Assembly: GCF_014279755.1 (NCBI RefSeq)
Contig: NZ_CP047951.1
Location: forward strand, 2,046,001-2,110,000
Source of the DNA: Synechococcus sp. PROS-U-1
Lineage (GTDB): Bacteria; Cyanobacteriota; Cyanobacteriia; PCC-6307; Cyanobiaceae
Direction of reading: 5' to 3'
DNA length: 64,000 bases
Positions 18,648 to 63,921 of this stretch are shown piece by piece. The notes under the pieces are model-generated. The model saw only the letters and a program-made list of their open reading frames with translations, made no database searches and was not told the origin of the DNA. Each line of letters starts with the position of its first letter. The first letter of the stretch is position 1. A program made the position numbers and the translations under genes.

Positions 18648-19922
18648 TCAGAACAGATCCAAAACATCCATGGATTGCCAGAGGGCCTGCTTCATGGGTC
18701 GAAGCATTCTTGAATAATTCCGCCAAAGCTCAAGCGATTGAGAACCGATCGGACGGCGAACCTGAACACGACTTGCAGTCTGAGTGACCAAACCTGACCG
18801 ATGGTGACCAAGAAAATCATCAGTCCAGGGCAACTCAAGCCACTCAACAAGATCACGCAAAACAGATGATGGATCAGAAACCATTTCCTCATATTTGAGA
18901 GGAAAAATCCTGCCTGGAAACTTTTCCGAAAAAACAGAGACCAACCTTCTTTCGTAAATAATCATTTCCGCTATATCCTCCAAGCTTGAAGAAAATGTAC
19001 TTCCAGGAAAAATATTTGCTCGATAAAGGGACAACGCATGAGCAAAAGGATTTCTCCTGCAATGAATGATCTTTGCCCGCGGGAAGCATTGCGCAATCAA
19101 ATCAATATTAATGAAATTAAAAAGACTTTTATCAACCAAATACTTGTCTTGCCGACGCTTTCTTACTGCCTCGAGGTAGTCCTTTCCAAGTAATTTGAGA
19201 CTATTCTCCCCCCAACCCAAATGAATTCTGACGGCAACGGCTTTCTCGAACTCCGAACACTCCCCAAGGTCACCCACCTTCTCTGACATGCAAAGGATGG
19301 CATCCAGAAGAGTCGAACCGCAACGCGGAAGACCCACCACAAAAATCAATCCGCGGCCTTCATCAAGGCCTGGCTCATGACCATCGACGGGACATTGACT
19401 CACCAAGCCCGCTCGAAAATCACCAATAGCTTGGGTTTGGCGAAGGTCAGAACCAGCCTCCAAAAGCCTCAGCCCATTACCACGCTCCAGCCAGCAAGCA
19501 GAAGCTTCATAATCACCATACTGATGAAAAAGATTTGATTTGGCAAAGCAAATCTTAATTCGATCTTCATAGCTTACGTACGATTCAGCATCAATACCCT
19601 TGAGCCTCTCAGCCAGAAAAGGATATTCTTGATACCTAATTTGCTTGGAGAGCGTGTAGTGCGACGAAGCATGCGAACCATCAATGTGCAACGCACAGAG
19701 GAGAGATCGCAAGGAACAATCAAGTCGCCCACAAAATTGATAAAGAAGGCCAAGATTCCGAAAACAGTCGACTCCTAAATCCTCTCTGAGGCATAGCCTT
19801 CTGAGGCTGACCAGTGCTCCGTTGAAATCCTCTAAAAGCAAGCAGGATTCGAAATCCTCCTGACAAGAAATCAACGCATCAACATTTTGACGTCCAACAC
19901 TTTGACCGAATTGTTCAGCCAC
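18648..19922 (-). CDS. TPR-containing sulfotransferase
   Basis: The C-terminal half is a PAPS-dependent sulfotransferase: FVVGLPRCGSTLLDAIL is the 5'-phosphosulfate loop and IIHCRRNPFAHALSLYR the 3'-phosphate site, followed by FPLKYEEMVSDP. The N-terminal half (about 180 residues) is helical with TPR-like spacing, as in tyrosine- and glycan-sulfotransferases with TPR arms. The start GTG 19922 overlaps the fcl stop by 8 bp and implies coupling; a TTG at 19979 is also possible. Base composition is AT-richer than in fcl and gmd. Encoded after gmd-fcl, it may sulfate a fucose-containing glycan (inference). Confidence 0.82.
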   Translation of the reverse strand: MAEQFGQSVGRQNVDALISCQEDFESCLLLEDFNGALVSLRRLCLREDLGVDCFRNLGLLYQFCGRLDCSLRSLLCALHIDGSHASSHYTLSKQIRYQEYPFLAERLKGIDAESYVSYEDRIKICFAKSNLFHQYGDYEASACWLERGNGLRLLEAGSDLRQTQAIGDFRAGLVSQCPVDGHEPGLDEGRGLIFVVGLPRCGSTLLDAILCMSEKVGDLGECSEFEKAVAVRIHLGWGENSLKLLGKDYLEAVRKRRQDKYLVDKSLFNFINIDLIAQCFPRAKIIHCRRNPFAHALSLYRANIFPGSTFSSSLEDIAEMIIYERRLVSVFSEKFPGRIFPLKYEEMVSDPSSVLRDLVEWLELPWTDDFLGHHRSGLVTQTASRVQVRRPIGSQSLELWRNYSRMLRPMKQALWQSMDVLDLF

Positions 19923-20910
19923 GCAAGCGATTGGTTTCAAGTGTCTTGCAGTAATCCTTGTAAGCGAGCGCAAGTCCAAGATTCAAAGGAATTCTTGATT
20001 CCCATCCCATAGCGCGCAGCCGACTCACCTCGAGTTGCTTCTTAGGCGTTCCATCCGGCTTGGTGGTATCCCACACAAGCTCCCCTTCAAACCCAACCGT
20101 GGCCCCAACTTTTTCCGCCAGCTCACGAATGGAGAGATCGATACCCGTGCCCACATTCAGAAAAGCCAGAGGCTGCCCGGAATCGTCGCAAGGGGCATCC
20201 TCCGCCAAGGCACTCCAGTGCTCCAAAGCGAACACACAGGCTGCACCCAAGTCATCGGCGTGCAAAAACTCCCGCAGCGGAGTGCCGCTGCCCCAACAGG
20301 TCACCGACGCATCGCCGCGGGTCTTGGCCTCATGGAAGCGGCGCAGCAGGGCCGGAAGCACATGGCTGTTGGTGGGGTGGTAGTTGTCCCCCGTGCCGTA
20401 AAGATTGGTCGGCATCAGGCTGATGGCGTCGAAGCCGTGCTGGCGACGCAGGGCCTCACACAGCTTGATGCCGCTGATCTTGGCGATGGCATACCACTCA
20501 TTGGTGGGCTCGAGTGGCCCTGTAAGCAGCGCCTCTTCGCGAATCGGTTGGTCTGCGAACTTCGGATAGATGCAACTGCTACCCAGAAACAGCAGCCGCC
20601 GCGCAGCGGTGGCCCAAGCCGCCTCGATCACATTGGTTTGGATCTTGAGGTTGTCCAGCAGGAAATCAGCCGGAAAGTTGTTGTTGGCCTGAATACCGCC
20701 AACCCGAGCTGCGGCCAAAACCACCACATCCGGATTGTGGTGATGCATCCAGCGCTCGACCGCTTCACGATTGAGGCAATCAAGCTCAACGCGTGAAGGC
20801 GTGAGGAGCTGTCGATAGCCACGGGCTTGCAATGTGCGACAAATGGCGCTCCCGGCCATGCCGCGGCTACCAAACACCGCAATTCGATCCTCCGCGGAGA
20901 TCAGCATCAT
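19915..20910 (-). CDS. fcl: GDP-L-fucose synthase
   Basis: A 331-aa short-chain dehydrogenase that epimerises and reduces GDP-4-keto-6-deoxymannose to GDP-L-fucose with NADPH. The Rossmann loop [29 protein letters not shown], the Ser of FLGSSCIYP and the Y-x-x-x-K of [17 protein letters not shown] are present. Its ATG 20910 overlaps the gmd stop (ATGA), and its stop overlaps the sulfotransferase start. A longer frame to 21030 lies inside gmd and is not used. Confidence 0.95.
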
Positions 20911-21995
20911 TCGTGGGCTCCGACCACATCGAAACCCTTGCGTCGCAGATAAGCCTCTTTTTGTGCTTCCTGCCGGTCGTTGTCCACCATGTCGGCCACC
21001 AGCTCTTCCAAGGTTGTGGTGGGGGTCCACCCCAGCTTCTCCTTGGCCTTGGTGGGATCACCTAAGAGCGTCTCCACTTCCGCCGGTCTGAAATAGCGGG
21101 GATCGATCCGCACGACAACATCATTGGTATCGGCCCGGCGACCGATCTCTTCGACACCGTCGCCATCCCAGTCGATACCGCCCCAACCGATCTTTTCAGC
21201 CGTGAGTTCAATGAACCGCCGCACGGTTTCCTGACGCCCCGTGGCGATCACAAAATCCTCGGGGCTGTCCTGCTGGAGCATCCGCCACTGCATCTCCACG
21301 TAGTCCCGCGCGTGGCCCCAGTCCCTTTTGGAATCAAGGTTGCCCATGTGGATGCACTGCTCCAAACCCGCATCAATTCGGCAGAGACCGCGGGTGATCT
21401 TGCGGGTCACGAATGTTTCACCACGACGCGGACTTTCGTGATTGAACAGAACGCCATTGCAGGCATACATGCCATAAGACTCGCGGTAATTCACCGTGAT
21501 CCAATAGGCGTACAACTTCGCAACGCCGTAAGGGCTGCGGGGATAGAAAGGCGTTGATTCCTTCTGAGGAGTTTCCTGAACCAGGCCATAAAGCTCACTC
21601 GTGCTGGCCTGATAAATCCGAGTTTTTTCAGTCAAACCCAAAATTCGAACAGCCTCGAGGATCCGAAGCGTTCCCAGAGCATCACTATTGGCGGTGTATT
21701 CCGGAGCTTCGAAACTCACCGCCACATGACTCTGAGCCCCGAGGTTATAAATCTCGTCAGGCTGAACCTGCTGAATAATCCGGATCAGATTGGTGCTGTC
21801 GGTGAGATCGCCGTAGTGAAGAACCAGCCTGGGGTCAGCCTCATGGGGATCTTGATACAGATGATCAATCCGGCTGGTATTGAAACTGCTAGCTCGACGT
21901 TTGATGCCATGCACTTCATATCCCTTCTCGAGGAGAAGCTCAGCCAAATAGCTTCCGTCCTGGCCCGTGATCCCAGTAATCAAGGCCTTTTTCAC
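20907..21995 (-). CDS. gmd: GDP-mannose 4,6-dehydratase
   Basis: A 362-aa NDP-sugar dehydratase giving GDP-4-keto-6-deoxymannose, the first step to GDP-fucose or GDP-rhamnose. Motifs: [19 protein letters not shown] (NADP loop, with typical GMD wording), [25 protein letters not shown] (catalytic Thr/Glu) and [12 protein letters not shown] (Tyr and Lys). The start is GTG 21995 (VKKALITG); the upstream extension to 22280 is unconserved and overlaps the divergent gene. First gene of gmd-fcl-sulfotransferase. Confidence 0.95.
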
Positions 21996-22050
21996 GGCTG
22001 GAATGTCCTGCAAGCATCGATAGAGTAAGTCGACTGGAGGATCCCGCCGG

Positions 22051-23055
22051 ATGGCGCCCAACTCGGACCTACTGGTGCTGTCGCTGCTTGTTTTGGTGGT
22101 GCTGTTGGGCTCAGCTCTCTGTTCGGGCGTGGAAGCCGCACTCCTCACGGTGAGTCCAATTCGCGTGCATGAGCTAGCCGCACGAGAAAGGCCTATTCCA
22201 GGTGCGCGACGCCTTGCGCAATTGCGGCAGCGCCTCGGCCGAACCCTCTCCGCCTTGGTCATCGCCAACAACGGTTTCAATATTTTCGGAAGCCTGATGC
22301 TGGGCGGTTATGCCGCCTGGGTGTTCGAGCAACGCAACATCAGCGGCGCCGCCCTACCGGTGTTCTCAGTCGGCCTCACCGTGCTGGTGATCCTGCTGGG
22401 GGAAATTCTGCCCAAAGCTCTTGGCAGCCGCCTGGCTCTGCCGGTGGCCCTGACCAGTGCGCCACTGCTGCATTGGCTCGGATTGGCCCTGCGACCATTG
22501 GTGCTGCTGCTGGAGCGCATGCTGCCGGCCATTACCGCGGAAGCGGAACTGAGCACCAACGAAGAGGAGATCCGTCTGCTGGCTCGCCTTGGCTCGCAAA
22601 AGGGAGAAATTGAAGCCGACGAAGCCGCGATGATCGGCAAGGTGTTTCAGCTGAACGATCTCACCGCCCGTGACCTGATGACGCCGCGGGTTGCGGCTCC
22701 CACCCTGGACGGGAGCCTGAGTATCGAAGCCCAGCGGGCCCAACTGATGAGCAACAACGACCCCTGGTGGGTGGTCCTCGGCGATCAGGTGGACAAGGTG
22801 CTCGGGGTAGCAAGCCGCGAACGGATGCTCACCGCTCTGCTGGAAAACCGTGGACTGCTCACCCCCGTCGACCTCTGCGAAGCGGTGGAGTATGTGCCAG
22901 AAATGATCCGGGCCGATCGGCTGCTGACGGGGTTCCGGCGCGACAGCGGCGGCGTGCGCGTGGTTGTGGATGAATTCGGAGGATTTGTCGGCGTGATCGG
23001 CGCCGAATCGGTGCTGGCGGTGCTGGCCGGCTGGTGGCGCAAGCCGGCAGCATGA
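22051..23055 (+). CDS. CNNM/CBS-domain membrane protein (hemolysin C / CorC-like)
   Basis: Residues 1-150 form a DUF21/CNNM transmembrane module with the [15 protein letters not shown] opening, [13 protein letters not shown] and [17 protein letters not shown] pair follows ([20 protein letters not shown] ... [20 protein letters not shown]). Family members are implicated in Mg2+ or Co2+ transport or tolerance. The C-terminal CorC_HlyC domain is absent, so the protein is shorter (334 aa) than many relatives. It heads a tight series: the next gene starts inside its stop codon (ATGA). Confidence 0.85.
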
Positions 23056-55315: not shown

Positions 55316-56257
55316 ATGACGCAGACCGGACCAGCAGCTCAGGATGACGTTCTTCTTCCTCAGGGCTGGAGCGAAGCCAACCAGGCCACCAGCCTGCTGT
55401 TCAGCATCGACGGTCTCGAGCTGCATCTGATCCCCGGATCGCGATTCGATGCCGTCGCTGACGCCGTCGGCACGTTGCGGGAATCCACCTACCGCCAACA
55501 GCTCTCCGGCTCCGGCAGCACCCGTGACCTTGACGGACGCGATGCGTCCTATGACCATTTGATTCTGCTGGAACCCCGCAGCGGGGCCCTGGCCGGTTCT
55601 GCCCGGCTGCAGTTCATTCCCCAGTTCACAGCGTCTGAACATCTTCCTGGCAGCCAGCAGTCCTACCTGGAGCACGTCTATCCGGGCATCAAGGCGATGC
55701 TGGCTGAGCAAACCCACCACGTGGAGATCGGTCGGGTGGCGTTAGCCCACCGCTTTCAGCGCCAACCGCATTCCCTGATGGCCCTGTTCCGAGGGGGGCT
55801 CCTGATCGCAGCCCGTTCGGGCTTCAGCATCCTGCACGGACTTGTCTCCTACAACCACTTCGCCTACAGCGATGCTGTCAACACGGCCTTCCTCAGTGCG
55901 TTAATGCGGCCTCCTTATCGCAGGACCCGCCCGACCCTGCCGCCACCGCGTCACCCGATCAGCGCGATCCAGCCCGACGACAGCATCCACCCGATCGGCA
56001 ACGTTCAGGCTCTGGAAGTGGCGATCCGACAAGACCACAACGACGACTTCCGTCTGCCGGTGTTGTTGCGTCAATACTTCAATCTGATGGAAGCCAAGGT
56101 CTGTGACCTGTCTCTCGCGAGAGATTTCAACCGAATCACCGAGATCCTGATGGCAGCCGACCTCTCAAGCCTGCCAAAAGATCGCCTAGCGTTCTTTATT
56201 GATGTTGATCACCAACCGGTCTACCAGCAATTCAGCTGGTACCGCGGCGAAAGATAA
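55316..56257 (+). CDS. OlsB/GNAT-like N-acyltransferase
   Basis: A 313-aa protein resembling the autoinducer synthase/OlsB-type acyltransferases that use acyl-ACP (YDHLILLEPRSGALAGSARL, then VEIGRVALAHRFQRQPHSLM, and HGLVSYNHFAYSDA). The place, two genes before a stand-alone ACP and a ketosynthase, supports an acyl-ACP donor. Acceptor unknown. The C-terminal 70 residues include FNLMEAKVCDLSLARDFN, typical of the family's closing region. Similarity is weak and the call is moderate. Confidence 0.6.
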   Translation: MTQTGPAAQDDVLLPQGWSEANQATSLLFSIDGLELHLIPGSRFDAVADAVGTLRESTYRQQLSGSGSTRDLDGRDASYDHLILLEPRSGALAGSARLQFIPQFTASEHLPGSQQSYLEHVYPGIKAMLAEQTHHVEIGRVALAHRFQRQPHSLMALFRGGLLIAARSGFSILHGLVSYNHFAYSDAVNTAFLSALMRPPYRRTRPTLPPPRHPISAIQPDDSIHPIGNVQALEVAIRQDHNDDFRLPVLLRQYFNLMEAKVCDLSLARDFNRITEILMAADLSSLPKDRLAFFIDVDHQPVYQQFSWYRGER

Positions 56258-56299: not shown

Positions 56300-56584
56300 G
56301 TGTTGGCCGAGGGAACCCCCGATAAGCAGCAGCTAGAGGGACGCCTTGTCGAGATCCTGCATCGCATCTCCGGTGCGGATCCTGCCGTGATCACCTCTGA
56401 TGCACGCCTGATGGAGGACATTGGGATTGACTCCCTCGGCTTCTACGAAATTCTGATCGAAGCCGACACCTGTTTCGGCATCCGCATCCAAGAAGAGCAG
56501 CTGCTGCAGTTCAAGACTGTGGGTGATATCCAAACTCATTTGGAATCACTCGAGATCGATCCAACCAACTCAAAGACCGCCTGA
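56300..56584 (+). CDS. Stand-alone acyl carrier protein
   Basis: A 94-aa protein with the 4'-phosphopantetheine attachment Ser45 in MEDIGIDSLGFYEILIEAD and typical four-helix ACP length. It is distinct from the general AcpP in its sequence around the serine (DSLGF rather than DSLDT/DSLDV). Start GTG 56300, or the next codon TTG 56303. It lies between the OlsB-like gene and the ketosynthase, starting two bases before the next gene's gap. Confidence 0.9.
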   Translation: MLAEGTPDKQQLEGRLVEILHRISGADPAVITSDARLMEDIGIDSLGFYEILIEADTCFGIRIQEEQLLQFKTVGDIQTHLESLEIDPTNSKTA

Positions 56585-56586
56585 CC

Positions 56587-57867
56587 GTGTCAGTTCGTCA
56601 GCGGTGCGCCCAACGTGTTTCGATCGTGGGCTGGGGTTCTGTCTCTCCCCTTGGCTGTGACGCAAGATCAACATGGGACGCGGTGCTGGCTGGCCGCTCT
56701 GGCATCAGCGCTCTGACGGCACCATGGAGCGACGATCTGCCGGTGCGCATCGCAGGCTGCGTACCGGAAGCTGCCACAAGCTCCCTTGAACCACTGCTCC
56801 TGCGGCGGTCCGACCGCTGTGCTCAGCTCGGGCTCCTGGCGGCTCGGGAGGCGTGGACCATGGCCAGCGATCTCACCTCAGGTCTTGATCCAGCCCGGGT
56901 GGCCGTGGTGCTGGGAACAGGCATCGGTGGACTCCACACAATGCATGAACAGCACAACCAGCTGACCGCCGGAGGCCCCACGCGGGTCAATCCCCTGACC
57001 GTTCCGATGCTGATCCCCGATGCTGCGGCCGGCCAAGTCGCGATCGATCTGGGGCTGCATGGTGGTGCTCACACACCGGTCTCAGCCTGTGCATCTGGAG
57101 CCGAGGCAATGATGCTTGCCCAGATGCTGCTTAACGATGAACGGGTCGATCTCGTGTTGGCGGGTGGCACTGAAGCACCGGTGAACCGGCTGGGGCTCGT
57201 GGGCTTTTCCGCGATGCGGGCCCTGTCGTCCCGCAACGACGCCCCTGAGCAAGCCTCGCGGCCCTACAGCCAAGACCGGGACGGTTTTGTGCTCTCCGAA
57301 GGGGCCGGAGTGCTGGCGATGATGCGAGAGGAGGACACCCCCAGGGGCGCTGCACTGGGTTGGCAACTGGCCTGCGGCAGCAGCAGCGACGGCCATCACA
57401 TCGTGGCGCCTGAACCCCAGGGCACCCAGGCCAGCCTGGCGATCGAAGATGCCCTGCGGCGAGCTGGGGTGGAACCCGGCGATCTCTGCGCCGTCCAGGC
57501 CCATGCCACCGGCACCAGCCTGGGGGACCTCGCGGAAGCGAGGGCGCTACGCCGCAGCTTGGGTGCTGCCGCCGATCAGATTCCCGTCTTTGCCCCCAAG
57601 GGGCAACTCGGGCATCTGCTGGGTGCTGCGGGAGCCGTGGAGGCGATTCTTGGCCTACAGGCGCTACAGCAAGGGACGCTGCCCCGCAGTATCAATGCAG
57701 ATCCCCTCGACCCGGAGGTGGAGCTCGCTGTGACCAACCAAGGGTCCGTCGAACTGTCCACCTCAGGCTCCGAACGGCTGATGCTCAAGAACGCCTTTGG
57801 CTTCGGCGGTCACAACATCAGCCTTGTGCTGTCTGCTCCCGGTAGTACTGCTGAACAGCAACGCTGA
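56587..57867 (+). CDS. FabF-like 3-oxoacyl-ACP synthase
   Basis: A 426-aa ketosynthase with a complete Cys-His-His triad: Cys168 in TPVSACASGAEA, His306 in VQAHATGTSLGD and His343 in GQLGHLLGAAGAVEAILGL. The closing NAFGFGGHNISLVL is typical. It is less like housekeeping FabF and fits a dedicated chain-elongation enzyme working with the adjacent ACP. Start GTG 56587. Overlaps the convergent KpsS-PlsC gene by 50 bp. Confidence 0.9.
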   Translation: MSVRQRCAQRVSIVGWGSVSPLGCDARSTWDAVLAGRSGISALTAPWSDDLPVRIAGCVPEAATSSLEPLLLRRSDRCAQLGLLAAREAWTMASDLTSGLDPARVAVVLGTGIGGLHTMHEQHNQLTAGGPTRVNPLTVPMLIPDAAAGQVAIDLGLHGGAHTPVSACASGAEAMMLAQMLLNDERVDLVLAGGTEAPVNRLGLVGFSAMRALSSRNDAPEQASRPYSQDRDGFVLSEGAGVLAMMREEDTPRGAALGWQLACGSSSDGHHIVAPEPQGTQASLAIEDALRRAGVEPGDLCAVQAHATGTSLGDLAEARALRRSLGAAADQIPVFAPKGQLGHLLGAAGAVEAILGLQALQQGTLPRSINADPLDPEVELAVTNQGSVELSTSGSERLMLKNAFGFGGHNISLVLSAPGSTAEQQR

Positions 57868-59803
57868 ATCCGTCACGATCGCGGGGATCCGTCGGCAACT
57901 GGAGATCATCCGCCCGACCACGGCGGCAATGAATCGTGCCCAATGGAGCTGTCAAACGACCCAGCAACAGGGGCAGCGGTTTGTAGCGTGCACCGACGGC
58001 ACCCTCCAATCCGTCGTAGCTGAAGAACCAGGGCACCACCCGGCCGCCGTAGTGCTGGGCCAGCATCCAGGCACTCGGCGACACCCGCTCCTCAATCGGC
58101 GTCACCAGCGAACCGTTGGGGGCAATCATGATTTCGCCGTGGTCCCGCAGCAGGGTGGAGGCACTCATCATTCCGGCGAGGCGCGACTGGGGCTGGCGGT
58201 GGTCCAGCACCGCCGAGCCTGCATTGCGTGCAGCGGCGGCATAGCCGGGCAGCACCCAGCGCAGATGCAGCTGAGCAGTGGTCAACCCCGGCAAGCGCAG
58301 AACCCCTTGAATCACCAGGCCATCACAGGGGCTGCGGTGATTGAAGATGTGCACCAGGGGCATCTCGGACGGTTCCGAGGGTTGACTGTCATCCACCACC
58401 ACCTGAATCCCCAGGGCCCGCAGAGCCACTGAGGAGGCCATGGTCATGAGTGCTGCGGCCCAGTCCGGTCTCCTCAGCAGCATGGCCGGCAACTGCAAAC
58501 CGTAGAGCGTGAAACCCAAGAAGGCCCAAGCCAGCCGAGCCATCACCCGCCCCACCAGCAGCACAGGATTGCGCAGCGTCCCCGATTTCGGGATCGGCAG
58601 TCTGGGACTGGGAGGGAGCTGACGGGCCTCCGGACCGATCGGGAAGGTGGTGCGGAAAGGGAAATCTCCATCGAAATTTCCATTCACCTGCGTGGTGAGC
58701 ACCAAATGGTTGTAAAACCGGTAGAAAAGTGCTCGATCGCTGGGCTGAGGATCACACCAGAAGGCATCAAGCGGCTTCTGATCGGTCAGTCCCTCCAGGT
58801 TGTAGAAGGTGTTTCCCATCGTCTTGGTGGGCACCGCATGGAACAAGGCCTGCAGCCCAACAGTGCTGTTCACAGTGATCACCCCACGGCAGGTGCGCAG
58901 ATAGCGGCTGAGGGGACCGTCGTGGAAGTAATGCACCCGGCCGGAGACGCCGTACTGCTTGGCGAGGAGCCGGATCAGCGAGGCATAGTTGTTGTACCCC
59001 CGATCCCGGGGATGGTGCTTGAAAGCCAGATGGTCGGACGCGTGGGCATGGCCAGCGAAGGACCGGATGACGTCTTCGATGAAGTCATGCATGCCGCGAT
59101 AAGGCGACCCCATCTGGATCTGTGAATCACTGGAGACCTGCAGAACAGACAGGAAAAAAGAGAAGTGTTCCAGCAACCGCTGCTTCACCGCCCGCTCCTG
59201 CCAGCGGTAAAGCCAGTAACGCCAAGTGCCCCGAACCTGACACCAAAGGAAGCGTGGTGACGGCTGAAGCTTGTGCTCTCCCTCAATAATTGGGTAACGG
59301 GTGAAGGCGTGCTGGATGAACGTCGGCGCCTTCAAGGCCTTGCGCCAGCGCCAACCCGGATCAAGCACGATGTTTTGCGGGAGCTGATCGCACGGCGGCA
59401 GCACCCGATAAAAGGCCGCTGGCTGGTTGAGGTTGGAACGGGCATTGACCCGGTCCCGTTCCAACGTCACGTAATTCGGGCGCAGATACCCCAGCTCAAA
59501 CACCCAGGCCTCGACACCAAGATCGCGGGCTTCTTCAATCGCGATCCGGTGGGGAATGATGAAGTCGCCATACATAAAGATGTGGCGAATTCCGCGTTCT
59601 TCAATCAGCCGCCGCAGGAAGGGACGCCACGAGTCCATCCCCTTGCTGTAGGGCACACAGACATCAGCCGGGAAGCCGAATTCCCGCAGGGGGAACGCCA
59701 CCTTGGTGACCGGAATGCCACACCCCTGCAGGTAGCGGCAGAAGCGAGCGAAGAAAAGACCAATCGGACCCATCAACAGCAGAACCGGTCCGTCGATCCG
59801 CAC
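57818..59803 (-). CDS. KpsS-like capsule glycosyltransferase fused to a PlsC-type acyltransferase
   Basis: A 661-aa fusion. Residues 1-430 match the KpsS capsule family: VLLLMGPIGLFFARFCRYLQ, FELGYLRPNYVTLERD, DHLAFKHHPRDRGYNNYAS and GVITVNSTVGLQALFHAVPT (Kdo-transferase-like). After a hydrophobic linker comes a PlsC-like domain with HIFNHRSPCDGLVIQGV (H-x4-D catalytic pair near residue 487) and IMIAPNGSLVTP. GTG 59803 is the chosen start, ATG 59773 the alternative. Downstream of kpsC on the same strand, 73 bp apart. Confidence 0.85.
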   Translation of the reverse strand: MRIDGPVLLLMGPIGLFFARFCRYLQGCGIPVTKVAFPLREFGFPADVCVPYSKGMDSWRPFLRRLIEERGIRHIFMYGDFIIPHRIAIEEARDLGVEAWVFELGYLRPNYVTLERDRVNARSNLNQPAAFYRVLPPCDQLPQNIVLDPGWRWRKALKAPTFIQHAFTRYPIIEGEHKLQPSPRFLWCQVRGTWRYWLYRWQERAVKQRLLEHFSFFLSVLQVSSDSQIQMGSPYRGMHDFIEDVIRSFAGHAHASDHLAFKHHPRDRGYNNYASLIRLLAKQYGVSGRVHYFHDGPLSRYLRTCRGVITVNSTVGLQALFHAVPTKTMGNTFYNLEGLTDQKPLDAFWCDPQPSDRALFYRFYNHLVLTTQVNGNFDGDFPFRTTFPIGPEARQLPPSPRLPIPKSGTLRNPVLLVGRVMARLAWAFLGFTLYGLQLPAMLLRRPDWAAALMTMASSVALRALGIQVVVDDSQPSEPSEMPLVHIFNHRSPCDGLVIQGVLRLPGLTTAQLHLRWVLPGYAAAARNAGSAVLDHRQPQSRLAGMMSASTLLRDHGEIMIAPNGSLVTPIEERVSPSAWMLAQHYGGRVVPWFFSYDGLEGAVGARYKPLPLLLGRLTAPLGTIHCRRGRADDLQLPTDPRDRDGFSVAVQQYYREQTAQG

Positions 59804-59876: not shown

Positions 59877-61874
59877 TCAACGGCGCCGCAGCCGGCCCCA
59901 GTGGCGGAACAGGGCCTGCACAAGCGTCCGCCGCTGCGGCGGAGCCGCTCGCCAGGCCACCAGCTCATCGATGGCCTGCTCTGGGGTGATGAACCAACCG
60001 CTGTCGCGGCTGACGTAGCGGGGATAGTCGATTAGGGCGGCATGGACCAGCTCATCCAGCGACAGCTGCCGCTGTCGGCGGTCGCAACGCTCGCGGTCGT
60101 GGGTGAGTCCCCAGCCGGCATAGAACGGCAAGCCCCAGCAATGCACCTCCAGGCCACGCAGCAACGCCTCAAACCCCGCCAGGGAGGTGAGCACGTGCAG
60201 GGCATCAATTTGAGTGAACAGCTGCTGGATCGAACCCTGCGGCAGCACCGCATCGCAGAGCTCAGCGGCATCGTCTTCGCCCGCACCGGCACGGCAGAGC
60301 CCGGCCACCACATCGGGATGCGGCTTGTACACCAGATAAGCCTCTGGCTCCGCCGCGCGCACCGCCGCCAGCAAGGCGCGGTTGCTGCGCAGACCCGGGG
60401 CGCCGTAGCGGATCGAGGCATCGCTTTCCACCTGACCGATCACGAGCACCACCCGCCTCTGGCCGACAGGGCGGATCCAGGGCTCCGCCTGGAGGTTGTA
60501 TTTGGTGATCGCCTCCTCCACCAACCGCTGACGCAAGGCCGCGGCCCTCTGCTGTTGGGCCGGCGTCCACTGCCCCGTCGCCAGGCGTGTTTCAAGATCG
60601 CTGGGTCGAGTGGCGTCGTAATAGACGCCCTGGTGATCCACCACCCAGGACACTGGATCCACCAGATCAGCCCCAAGTCCGACCGAACGCAGAAAACCGT
60701 CCTCCACCTGCACCACCGGCAGCTGACGCCGGGCCGCGGCCTCAAGCAACCGCGGCTTGGCGCGACGGCCCCAGACCACCACGGCATCAACGCCCTGCGG
60801 AATCCGCCGCCATGGGGCGCGAAAGCGCAGCTGACTGCCCGCCAGGAAGCGGCGCAGATTGCGCTGTTTCCAGGGGGTGAAGCCGTAGGCCACACACCGC
60901 CGCGGCTGCTGGGCCTGCAGGCGCCGCTGCAGGCCGATCGCACGCATCAACGTTTCCATGCTGCAGGGCTGATGCCGGTGCGGGTCGATGCAGCGGCAGG
61001 CCCCCACCAGTGCGGCATGCACCAGGGCCTCCAGGCTGGCGCGCTGGCGTCGCCGGACCGGGGCCTTGCATCGGTCGTGGGTTAGCCCCCAGCCGCTATA
61101 GAACGGCACGCCAAAACAGTGGACAGGGCGACCCCAAAGCAGGGCCTCAAAGCCCATCTGAGAGGTGACCACATACACCGCCCTGGCCCGCTCGAGCAGC
61201 TGCGCCGGATGACCACCATCAGCACTCAAACGAACGCGGGGCTCAGCCAGATCCCTGGCATTGAAATGGCCTCGGGCGCGCCCAGAGATCACATCCGGAT
61301 GCACCTTCAACACCACCGTGCAGTCGGGATGTTCGTCCAAAGCGGCCTGAAGCATCTGCTGAAAACAGCTGGCATCCGCCAGTCCAAGCGCGATCGATCG
61401 ATCCCCCGCGGATTGATCGACCACCAGCACAAACGGGTCTTGGGGCGCCGCCGCCTCCGCAGGGGGGTTCACCTTGCTGAGCCGCTGCTCGCGCCACAGC
61501 ATCCCCAGCGCACGGGCGCGATCAGCCTCAGCCGCCGTGATCGGCGCCGCAATCAACTGCTCCATCCGGCTGGGGGCTGTGGCATCGAAATGCACCCCCA
61601 GTTCATCCACCAGAAGAGCAAGCGGTGGATGATTCCTGCCCTTAGCCAACGAGCGCAGCAAACCGTCCTCGAGATGCCAGACCGGCAGATCCCAACGGCG
61701 GGCGAGGCGTTCGACACGAAGCGCACTGGGCCGCCGCCCCCAGGCCAGTAGCGCATCCACATCACGCCTCCGGCCCGGCACCAACAAGTGCGGTGCCATG
61801 AGCTGCGGAAGTGTGCGGTGCGTCAGCATCCCCCGGGCCGGAACACCGAGCCGCAGAGCAGCAGGCCTGGTCAT
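59877..61874 (-). CDS. KpsC-like double-module capsule glycosyltransferase
   Basis: A 665-aa protein with two tandem related modules. The first has VWHLEDGLLRSLAKG and VPFYSGWGLTHDR; the second has VVQVEDGFLRSVGLG and LPFYAGWGLTHDR. KpsC proteins build the poly-beta-Kdo linker of lipid-anchored capsules using two glycosyltransferase modules; the sugar here need not be Kdo. ATG 61874 is used. Divergent from the CMP-sugar synthetase, 32 bp away. Confidence 0.85.
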   Translation of the reverse strand: MTRPAALRLGVPARGMLTHRTLPQLMAPHLLVPGRRRDVDALLAWGRRPSALRVERLARRWDLPVWHLEDGLLRSLAKGRNHPPLALLVDELGVHFDATAPSRMEQLIAAPITAAEADRARALGMLWREQRLSKVNPPAEAAAPQDPFVLVVDQSAGDRSIALGLADASCFQQMLQAALDEHPDCTVVLKVHPDVISGRARGHFNARDLAEPRVRLSADGGHPAQLLERARAVYVVTSQMGFEALLWGRPVHCFGVPFYSGWGLTHDRCKAPVRRRQRASLEALVHAALVGACRCIDPHRHQPCSMETLMRAIGLQRRLQAQQPRRCVAYGFTPWKQRNLRRFLAGSQLRFRAPWRRIPQGVDAVVVWGRRAKPRLLEAAARRQLPVVQVEDGFLRSVGLGADLVDPVSWVVDHQGVYYDATRPSDLETRLATGQWTPAQQQRAAALRQRLVEEAITKYNLQAEPWIRPVGQRRVVLVIGQVESDASIRYGAPGLRSNRALLAAVRAAEPEAYLVYKPHPDVVAGLCRAGAGEDDAAELCDAVLPQGSIQQLFTQIDALHVLTSLAGFEALLRGLEVHCWGLPFYAGWGLTHDRERCDRRQRQLSLDELVHAALIDYPRYVSRDSGWFITPEQAIDELVAWRAAPPQRRTLVQALFRHWGRLRRR

Positions 61875-61906
61875 CGGGTAAGACAGGTCGCACTGAATCC
61901 TCACCG

Positions 61907-62587
61907 ATGGCAGTCCCCCGTGGTGCGCTGGCCCTAATCCCCGCCCGCGGTGGATCGAAGGGCATTCCAGGAAAGAACCTGCAAGAGGTGGGCGGTGTGC
62001 CACTGGTCTGCCGCAGCATCCATGCCGCCCAGGCCAGCAACAGCGTTGGCCGAGTGGTGGTGAGCACCGACGATGACGCCATCGCGGCAGCTGCCGAAGG
62101 CGAGGGCGCCGGCGTAATTCGGCGCCCCGAGGCCATCTCCGGGGACACGGCCAGTTCGGAATCGGCACTGCTGCATGCTCTCGACGTGCTGGAGGAGCAG
62201 GGACCACTCGAAGCCGAGCTGGTGTTCCTGCAATGCACCTCCCCCTTCACCAACGGAGATCAGATCGATGCGGTACTTGCTGCCCTGAATCCAGAACACT
62301 GCAACAGCAGCTTCGCCGTCACCCCTTGGCACGGCTTTCTTTGGCGCGCCGATGGGCGGGGCATCAACCACGACCCTGAGCTGCCCCGCCAACGCCGCCA
62401 GGAGCTGGAACCAGCATTTTTGGAAACAGGAGCGATTTACGCCATGGACCTCGCGGCCTTCCGGCGCTGCGGCAGTCGCTTCTGCCCACCGTCGAGTCCG
62501 GTAGTCCTGGAACAGGTAGGGCCGGAAATCGACACGCCCGACGATCTGGCCCTCTGCCGCAACATCGCTGGACAGAAAGCCGAGTAA
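61907..62587 (+). CDS. neuA: CMP-nonulosonate (acylneuraminate-like) cytidylyltransferase
   Basis: A 226-aa enzyme activating a nine-carbon acidic sugar with CTP. Nucleotide-binding motif ALIPARGGSKGIPGKNLQEV, VGRVVVSTDDDAIAAAA, the substrate motif LVFLQCTSPFTNGDQI and FLETGAIYAMDL are characteristic of NeuA/PseF/LegF enzymes rather than KdsB. Which sugar is used cannot be told. ATG 61907. Confidence 0.88.
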   Translation: MAVPRGALALIPARGGSKGIPGKNLQEVGGVPLVCRSIHAAQASNSVGRVVVSTDDDAIAAAAEGEGAGVIRRPEAISGDTASSESALLHALDVLEEQGPLEAELVFLQCTSPFTNGDQIDAVLAALNPEHCNSSFAVTPWHGFLWRADGRGINHDPELPRQRRQELEPAFLETGAIYAMDLAAFRRCGSRFCPPSSPVVLEQVGPEIDTPDDLALCRNIAGQKAE

Positions 62588-62613
62588 TTTTGCCCAGCAA
62601 AGACTCGGAGTCG

Positions 62614-63921
62614 ATGGCGCTCGCAGAATCAAAGCGCCTCGTCGGCCGCAAGGTCACCGCCGTCGCCTGTTTCGACTCCTTTGGGAAGCTGGCGATGACC
62701 ATGCTGGCTGCTTGCCGGAGGGAAGGCGCCGAGACCACCCTGCTGCTGCTGCAGCTGAACAACCGGGCTCTCTCTCGCCGGCAACGCCTTGAAATTCGGC
62801 GGATCGACCCCAAGACCCGCATCGAAAAACACAACTGGAATGATCTGCGCCAGCTCTGTGGCGACATGGCGGGGGATATCGATGCCCTGATCCTGGGTCT
62901 GGATGGCCAGCGCAGCCGCGATGCCCTGCTGCAATTGCAAAACATCTGGGCGAATCAACAGCAACGTCCACGGCTGATCAGCGCGTACCCGGGAATCCTG
63001 TTCCGGTTCGGCCTCGAAGGGATGATGGACCGCTCCGGCGTCGACCTGCTCTGCCTCAACAGTGCCGACGATCTGGCCTTGTATGGCCGAGGCCGCAAGG
63101 CTCTGGGCCTGGACAGCAGCAATGCCGTCGTCACAGGTCTACCGATTCTCTGGCGCACAAAACAGCGCCAGGCAGTTCTGGAGAACCCGTCGATCGTGTT
63201 CTTCGAACAACCCTCGATTCCAGTGCATCCACTGCAACGCCGGTTCCTTTGCGACCAGATCAAGGAGCTGGCCGCGGCCTGGCCCGATCACCCCGTGATT
63301 TTTAAGCCGCGGACATCGAGCATCGAGAGCACTCTGCATCGGCGCCATGGGGAAATGGCCAGCGTCATCGACAAGATGACGCGCGATCAGCCGAATCTGC
63401 GCCTGAGTTTCAAACCCGCCACTCTGCTGCTCCGCCAGTGCGGTTGTGCCATCACCGTCTCATCAACCGCCGCCATGGAATCGATGGCGATGGGCATCAG
63501 CACCCGCATCGTCGGTGACCTGGGCGTGACCGAAACCCTCGGCAACCACTTCTTTGCCAGTTCAGGTGCCATCGCCAGCTTCGCCGCGATCAAGGCGACC
63601 CCGTTCGAAGTCATCCATGACGCTCAATGGCTTGAGCAGCAAGGTTTACACCGGGACGGTGAAGACCGCTTCATCACGGCACTCATGGAGCGGCTCAACA
63701 GCCCCGCCACTCCGCTCGGGGAATCAAACCATGGTCCCCTGAGCTGGGGTAGCAGTGCCTGGCAGAAGGCCGCCTTGCGCAACGGGGGCCGGCGGATGCT
63801 GAGCAGTGGTGGCGCCCGCTCCAGCCAGCGCAAACGCCACCGCACCCGTCGCATGCTGCGCAGCCTGCGAGACAGCGTGGTGGGATTCGGCTGGCTCTCG
63901 AAACTGCTGCGGGAACGATGA
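62614..63921 (+). CDS. DUF6716-type putative glycosyltransferase
   Basis: A 435-aa protein resembling the DUF6716 putative glycosyltransferases. Features: VTAVACFDSFGKLAMTMLAA, RLISAYPGILFRFGLEGMMD, VFFEQPSIPVHPLQRRFLCD and ITVSSTAAMESMAMGI, a GT-B-like C-terminal half. A basic tail (RKRHRTRRMLRSLRD) ends the protein. ATG 62614 is preferred; TTG 62590 would add eight residues. Overlaps the next gene by four bases. Confidence 0.65.
   Translation: MALAESKRLVGRKVTAVACFDSFGKLAMTMLAACRREGAETTLLLLQLNNRALSRRQRLEIRRIDPKTRIEKHNWNDLRQLCGDMAGDIDALILGLDGQRSRDALLQLQNIWANQQQRPRLISAYPGILFRFGLEGMMDRSGVDLLCLNSADDLALYGRGRKALGLDSSNAVVTGLPILWRTKQRQAVLENPSIVFFEQPSIPVHPLQRRFLCDQIKELAAAWPDHPVIFKPRTSSIESTLHRRHGEMASVIDKMTRDQPNLRLSFKPATLLLRQCGCAITVSSTAAMESMAMGISTRIVGDLGVTETLGNHFFASSGAIASFAAIKATPFEVIHDAQWLEQQGLHRDGEDRFITALMERLNSPATPLGESNHGPLSWGSSAWQKAALRNGGRRMLSSGGARSSQRKRHRTRRMLRSLRDSVVGFGWLSKLLRER

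Follow-up and report, generated by a model that had tools for sequence, protein, structure and literature searches.

A KpsS-PlsC fusion gene beside an acyl cassette in picocyanobacteria: candidate components of a dedicated capsule lipid anchor pathway

The fusion gene and the adjoining acyl cassette

The window analyzed here is a stretch of 64,000 nucleotides from Synechococcus sp. PROS-U-1 (contig NZ_CP047951.1, positions 2,046,001 to 2,110,000), and coordinates below count from its first letter. Its minus strand carries a gene, kpsS-plsC, whose predicted product joins a KpsS-type capsule transferase to a PlsC-type acyltransferase. A preliminary description of this DNA proposed that both reside in one polypeptide, and this proves correct: the open frame is single and both Pfam domains score above their cut-offs. 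The features of the gene are as follows.

57818..59803 (-): kpsS-plsC fusion gene, open frame, 661 residues from GTG
58673..59581 (-): KpsS-type Capsule_synth domain, residues 75-377 of 661; PF05159, E 1.7e-56
57821..58573 (-): PlsC-type acyltransferase domain, residues 411-661 (the N-terminal helices, which align to the beginning of PlsC, are included); PF01553 and structure 5kym
58322..58342 (-): H-x4-D catalytic motif N-H-R-S-P-C-D, residues 488-494
58106..58120 (-): P-N-G-S-L replacing P-E-G-T-R, residues 562-566

The uninterrupted frame ends with the stop codon at 57818. Its candidate starts are the GTG at 59803 and the first ATG at 59968, which correspond to predicted proteins of 661 and up to 716 residues. 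As judged by eye, the GTG is not preceded by a clear ribosome site, and the frame stays open upstream into the end of kpsC. A chance frame, a frameshift artefact or an assembly slip can be ruled out, because the fused frame recurs in many genomes.

Capsule_synth scores 192.4 bits (cut-off 20) and Acyltransferase scores 29.2 bits (cut-off 23; E 8.8e-7). The best NCBIfam model for the protein is KpsS (NF050054), at 278 bits. This value is below the equivalog cut-off of 600; thus, by NCBI's own rule, the protein is a relative of KpsS and is not called an equivalog. Residues H263, H264 and P265, together with N312, S313 and T314, are invariant in all 10 aligned rows. Conserved H-P and S/T motifs belong to the cytidine monophosphate (CMP)-sugar site of KpsS-type transferases. 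Judged by its family, the KpsS half is presumably the initiator that transfers 3-deoxy-D-manno-octulosonic acid (Kdo) from CMP-Kdo to a lipid. The fusion protein also has a weak match to DUF6716 (18.2 bits), and a sequence search of solved structures returned no match for it.

The fusion gene is convergent with a set of three genes on the opposite strand, which overlaps it by 50 bases at the ketosynthase end.

55316..56257 (+): GNAT N-acyltransferase of the OlsB/OlsF/FeeM superfamily; PF13444, 43.7 bits, cut-off 22.4
56300..56584 (+): acyl carrier protein (ACP), 94 residues, with a G-I-D-S-L attachment site; PF00550, 38.5 bits, cut-off 20.8
56587..57867 (+): second beta-ketoacyl-ACP synthase, FabF type, with C, H, H motifs; TIGR03150, 398.5 bits, cut-off 493.75

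The carrier protein was found by inspecting the gap between the GNAT and ketosynthase genes. In the whole genome there are two carrier-protein matches and two FabF-type matches, the other FabF-type copy scoring 637.6 bits with TIGR03150. The housekeeping carrier protein and FabF genes are also neighbors, so the pair at the capsule locus looks like a second acpP-fabF unit.

This cassette accompanies the fusion gene closely. GNAT and KpsS-PlsC occur in the identical 19 of 104 good genomes (completeness of 90% or more, contamination of 5% or less), and in the identical 10 of 386 genomes sampled across the phylum. A carrier protein adjoins the GNAT gene in 27 of 27 GNAT loci. A ketosynthase does so in 25; the two exceptions are short loci with apparent contig ends. 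The order GNAT-ACP-ketosynthase / KpsS-PlsC-KpsC is found in 14 of 18 loci collected by a separate contig scan, the remaining 4 being cut short. The same order is present in two genomes whose KpsS is only ~50% identical.

Conservation and decay of the acyltransferase half

The preliminary description recognized a PlsC-like domain with an H-x4-D pair, and the motif N-H-R-S-P-C-D and the predicted fold both bear this out. The AlphaFold model is fair to good over residues 411-661 (block means mostly 70-90), and its best structural match is PlsC of T. maritima (5kym; Z 14.8 over 224 of 241 residues, Foldseek E 5e-5). Further matches are a glycerol-3-phosphate acyltransferase (Z 10.7), PatA (10.6) and LpxM (9.3). 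A structural model of the whole protein serves this half only: most of the KpsS half has a predicted local distance difference test (pLDDT) score below 50 and was not interpreted structurally.

The canonical acceptor motif of the lysophosphatidate acyltransferase (PlsC) family is P-E-G-T-R. Block III of the present domain reads A-P-N-G-S-L. That E-G-T-R is altered had been noted before, and the alteration turns out to be a fixed feature of the family. When diverse intact copies are aligned, all 8 of 8 share N-H-x-x-P-x-D and P-[NS]-G-S-L-x-T, including the P, G, S and L of the changed motif, and thus intact copies have P-[N/S]-G-S-L where PlsC has P-E-G-T-R. The AGPAT model TIGR00530 scores this half at just 11.1 bits (cut-off 102.95). 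A fixed motif of this kind makes a substrate other than lysophosphatidic acid plausible.

The PlsC half is under purifying selection. Among 8 close pairs in which both copies are intact, its ratio of nonsynonymous to synonymous substitution rates (omega) is 0.047-0.119; that of the KpsS half in the same pairs is 0.027-0.079. Values of 0.12 and 0.126 were obtained for two pairs that include a half-changed copy (L042). Three pairs of decayed domains give 0.24-0.31, two of them being saturated at synonymous sites (synonymous divergence, dS, of 2.6 and 3.2), and omega is undefined for a fourth. Stand-alone copies of the domain, described below, give 0.22, 0.13 and 0.18, with dS saturated or nearly so in two of the three, and one further pair is undefined.

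The KpsS part was found in 29 of 148 related genomes, including 19 of the 104 good ones. In the phylum-wide sample, all 10 of the 386 genomes with the KpsS-PlsC protein belong to one family. The contig scan used peptide patterns of the KpsS-PlsC protein that reach close relatives only, so distant fusions may exist on chromosomes of other phyla; its 18 loci are all cyanobacterial and nearly all are titled Synechococcus or Cyanobium. At least 10 of them are the same sequences as in the 29 genomes, and six are clearly additional (L045-L047, L049-L051). Both motifs are present in 13 of these loci, one has an ambiguous residue, one lacks the P, one is decayed and two are cut. None of 100 plasmid records matching KpsS covers 80% of the query, and the 25 matches listed end at residue 377 or 379, short of the PlsC half.

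The contigs of two of the 29 genomes end before the acyltransferase domain, leaving 27 that reach the motifs (one, L028, ends at residue 609, past both). Both N-H-x4-D and P-x-G-S-L lie in the KpsS frame in 20 of the 27. One more (L014) has both motifs with an ambiguous residue at the D, and another (L023) keeps H-x4-D and has lost the P of PxGSL. The remaining five (L031-L034 and L038) have lost both motifs from the fused domain.

Most of these losses have a counterpart nearby. In six of the 29 genomes, a stand-alone acyltransferase domain directly follows the fusion gene, with both motifs in all six; the six form one clade (support 99/97). The fused domain has lost both motifs in four of these six, and in a fifth (L023/L042) it lacks the P. 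Counting fused and adjoining stand-alone copies together, 26 of the 27 genomes have an intact acyltransferase. The PlsC subfamily was matched in 26 of the 148 genomes, all of them KpsS-positive, and in none of the 119 genomes without KpsS; among KpsS-positive genomes, only G064 and the two whose contigs are cut (G013, G018) gave no match.

In a tree of the KpsS half, the four decayed members fall among the close relatives of the window's own protein (SH-aLRT 100). The tree analysis has no outgroup and leaves out the decayed L038, and long branches among the decayed domains call for caution. This nesting indicates that decay was recent and took place in genomes carrying a stand-alone copy. By sequence, the pairing of a stand-alone copy with a decayed fused domain amounts to natural complementation, and the fusion appears to be an old, selected trait. 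The preliminary description also suggested that fusion would couple acylation to addition of the first linker sugar. The fusion itself is real; however, physical coupling is not strictly required, given that four of the six genomes with a stand-alone copy have a decayed fused domain.

Two single-cell assemblies show unusual arrangements. In one (L044:5814-9977, plus strand), KpsC, KpsS and PlsC form a single frame of 1388 residues, a triple fusion. In the other (L042:5755-7921), kpsC lies in two overlapping frames, through either a frameshift or a sequencing error.

A possible dedicated route to the capsule anchor

The earlier suggestion that the acceptor may not be glycerol-phosphate is partly upheld, in that the motif change makes a substrate other than lysophosphatidate plausible. 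The preliminary description missed the adjoining GNAT-ACP-ketosynthase cassette, and with it the most likely acceptor changes. We propose that the lipid anchor of a transporter-dependent, Kdo-linked capsule is made by a dedicated pathway, which presents KpsS with a non-standard acceptor; to this reading we assign a probability of slightly under one half. Its stronger part, a role of the acyl cassette in making the capsule anchor, is probably correct. Its weaker part, that the anchor is an aminolipid, is tentative. More tentative still is the full version, in which a phosphate-free N-acyl aminolipid anchors a Kdo-linked capsule, the private ACP, ketosynthase and GNAT making the lipid and KpsS-PlsC acylating it and starting the glycan.

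The pathway would begin with the private carrier protein and ketosynthase preparing a special acyl-ACP. The GNAT enzyme, to judge by its family and fold, might then use this chain to acylate the amine of an amino acid or similar head group, yielding a lyso-aminolipid, as OlsB or FeeM do. The PlsC-like half, whose fold, catalytic pair and selection are evident, could add a second acyl chain to a hydroxyl, as OlsA does. From the protein families present, the KpsS half would put the first beta-Kdo on this lipid and KpsC would extend the linker. The polymer would be built on the linker and exported through KpsE/KpsM homologues and an SLBB protein.

Kdo is available for such a linker. KdsA is encoded elsewhere in the genome and scores over its cut-off, and homologues of KdsB, KdsC and KdsD/KpsF lie within 11 kb, each over at least one curated cut-off. 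These genes rule out the alternative that Kdo is absent and another donor takes its place. Among good genomes of the same genus, KdsA is found in 15 of 15 that have a KpsS of the KpsS-PlsC type and in none of four that do not. The lipopolysaccharide of two marine Synechococcus strains is reported to be free of Kdo (PMC4515613), which makes a capsule linker a natural use for this sugar.

Parts of the locus resemble known systems. Like the KpsS/KpsC group 2 systems of E. coli and N. meningitidis, the genome has a KpsS-type first transferase, a repeated-domain KpsC extender, CMP-Kdo genes and KpsE- and KpsM-like exporters. Unlike in those systems, its KpsS is fused to an acyltransferase and adjoins a private acyl cassette. 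The ornithine, glycine and glutamine aminolipids are made by OlsB with OlsA, by OlsF, or by GlsB with GlsA, in a scheme that combines N-acylation by a PF13444 enzyme with O-acylation by a PlsC-type one, the acyl groups coming from acyl-ACP (PMC11631085). The same combination is present here, but the O-acyltransferase is fused to a sugar transferase, the ACP and ketosynthase are the locus's own, and the setting is a capsule locus.

Dedicated lipid anchors for capsules have precedent in the VexE acyltransferase and in the lipid-carrier genes of rhizobial K antigens. VexE, of the Vi capsule, is described as a dedicated acyl-ACP-dependent acyltransferase of LPLAT type that builds the anchor of a transporter-dependent capsule, acting, unlike the enzyme proposed here, on uridine diphosphate (UDP)-GlcNAc (PMC9597891); we compared it by description. 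The Vi system of S. Typhi is described as lacking KpsS and KpsC (PMC12220298), whereas both types are present in the picocyanobacterial locus. Rhizobial rkp-1 and Burkholderia wcb likewise place fatty-acid-synthase-like genes beside capsule genes (PMC4881576, PMC3908369), and for rkp-1 the synthesis of a specific lipid carrier is reported (PMC4881576). As compared by description, those regions encode type I polyketide or fatty acid synthases (RkpA/WcbR), and the present one encodes a discrete ACP, ketosynthase and GNAT.

Several observations weigh against a dedicated anchor pathway. Both enzymes on which it depends score below curated cut-offs, the PlsC half with the AGPAT model and the GNAT protein with OlsF. 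The latter model (NF052615) is the nearest in NCBIfam and gives 58.5 bits, far below its cut-off of 620. The GNAT protein also falls short of the FeeM family (PF21926, 15.1 bits with a cut-off of 27). Its predicted structure (mean pLDDT 73.5) has a GNAT fold like that of FeeM-type N-acyl amino acid synthases (Z 11.1), but it matches the acyl-homoserine-lactone synthases LasI (11.8) and TofI (11.7) and the acetyltransferase AAC(2') (11.5) as well. Because some plain acetyltransferases, AAC(2') among them, match as well as FeeM does, the fold alone leaves the class of the GNAT unsettled, and a sequence search of solved structures with the GNAT protein gave matches at chance level only. The cassette and kpsC-kpsS lie on opposite strands and thus do not form one operon, and co-occurrence of neighbors can arise by gain or loss of a whole block. 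Four mismatches in distribution are seen in incomplete genomes (53-87% complete), G010 having GNAT only and G012, G013 and G018 having KpsS only.

In addition, G064 (L038, L100) combines KpsS and the cassette with a PlsC half that has decayed, and a search of it turned up no further copy, so the acyltransferase can be dispensable or replaced. The wider family includes 10 good genomes with KdsA and without a fusion-type KpsS. The KpsE/KpsM homologues lie far from the locus and score low (TIGR01010, 160.9 bits with a cut-off of 437.5; NF050053, 65.9 with a cut-off of 300), and the gene in the KpsT position beside them matches nothing in NCBIfam or Pfam.

The main rival, which we consider unlikely, is that the acceptor is ordinary: the PlsC half acylates lyso-phosphatidylglycerol or remodels phosphatidylglycerol (PG) for KpsS, and the cassette supplies an unusual chain or serves elsewhere. 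KpsS is described as acting on PG or lyso-PG, with mono- or diacyl anchors (PMC7694667, PMC12220298), and the closest structural match of the domain is indeed a lysophosphatidate acyltransferase. However, the exchange of P-E-G-T-R for P-[N/S]-G-S-L in intact copies and the low TIGR00530 score speak against such a substrate, and the co-occurring GNAT and ACP are left without explanation. The GNAT is equally unexplained if the PlsC half acylates a sugar, either linker Kdo or polymer, and thereby provides a second anchor point as PatA or VexE would. VexE carries a C-terminal LPLAT domain and acts with acyl-ACP on UDP-GlcNAc (PMC9597891), and PatA and LpxM are among the structural matches; however, PlsC is a clearly closer match, one that extends over the N-terminal helices, which makes sugar acylation improbable.

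In a very improbable alternative, the PlsC half does no catalysis and only tethers KpsS to the membrane. The decayed domain of G064, with no replacement found, and four other genomes that retain a fused domain without catalytic residues would fit a tether. However, 21 of 27 fused copies retain H-x4-D, in addition to the one with an ambiguous residue, omega is low in intact pairs, and an intact stand-alone paralogue accompanies four of the five losses. It is also conceivable, with a very small probability, that GNAT, ACP and ketosynthase make an unrelated N-acyl amino acid product and merely neighbor the capsule genes. FeeM-type enzymes do yield free N-acyl amino acids (PMC11631085), and the cassette is on the other strand. 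Against this stand the identical distribution of GNAT and KpsS-PlsC in both genome sets and a gene order that is kept even where KpsS is only about half identical.

The dedicated anchor pathway, if correct, would be a new route to a capsule anchor of the transporter-dependent type. Were the anchor a phosphate-free aminolipid, KpsS would act on something other than a glycerophospholipid, and the cell would save phosphorus in waters poor in it. Few phototrophs are as abundant as Synechococcus, and surface glycans influence encounters with phages and grazers. Our findings suggest a special lipid anchor for the capsule in picocyanobacteria of Synechococcus and Cyanobium. A 2025 review describes the lipid end of transporter-dependent capsules as conserved, with beta-Kdo on PG (PMC12220298). 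The present lineage offers a presumed Kdo initiator with its own acyltransferase beside a cassette for acyl-ACP and N-acylation, so that recognition by KpsS is directly testable in a natural system.

A 2015 phylum-wide survey of cyanobacterial exopolysaccharide genes, in whose main text the word "acyltransferase" appears nowhere, took the confined distribution of KpsS and KpsC as a sign that the poly-Kdo linker may be absent or that Kdo is transferred differently. The picocyanobacterial locus would answer that question concretely for one clade. No report of a KpsS-PlsC fusion was found in the titles and passages of literature on KpsS, capsule anchors and Synechococcus capsules.

Capsule and other surface glycan genes

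The wider surroundings of the fusion gene within the window include the following capsule genes.

59877..62207 (-): kpsC, with four Capsule_synth stretches; PF05159, E 7.6e-86, 288.8 bits
54053..55246 (-): outer-membrane polysaccharide export protein (Poly_export, SLBB); Pfam
61811..62587 (+): CMP-sugar synthase nearest PseF, 125.5 bits, cut-off 205.7
62590..63921 (+): DUF6716 putative glycosyltransferase, first of three; PF20471, 196.8 bits

KpsC is a probable extender of the beta-Kdo chain. The CMP-sugar synthase is unlikely to be the Kdo activator, since it is nearest PseF and a separate KdsB exists; it probably serves a nonulosonic acid of the capsule. Past the right edge of the window come two further DUF6716 proteins, a synthase of NeuB type and two or more sulfotransferases, and the polymer is thus predicted to be, probably, a sulfated nonulosonic acid glycan.

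The KpsE and KpsM homologues lie together at 1890529. The strongest ABC-2 permease of the genome (G000:C1:671103) was considered as KpsM and set aside; by eye, it adjoins what appear to be cytochrome oxidase and heme-synthesis genes and a drug-exporter-like ATPase, and the pair at 1890529 is the better candidate. The gene in the KpsT position beside that pair (L123:2221-3084, minus strand; G000:C1 about 1891250-1892110) could encode either an ABC partner that looks dead as an ATPase or a different protein. No Walker A pattern was found in any frame of L123.

The three DUF6716 genes stand in a row (window 62590-63921 and L058:918-3262) next to nonulosonic acid genes. One of their products has a Capsule_synth match below the cut-off (17.2 bits), and DUF6716 may be a distant relative of KpsS. 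To the right of the window, L058:3302-5587 (plus strand) encodes a protein of 761 residues that combines CBS, NeuB and SAF domains with a xylose-isomerase-like barrel. Within the window, positions 18648-22280 (minus strand) carry a sulfotransferase gene beside genes for a guanosine diphosphate (GDP)-mannose dehydratase and an epimerase of GDP-fucose type, which are probably further surface glycan genes.

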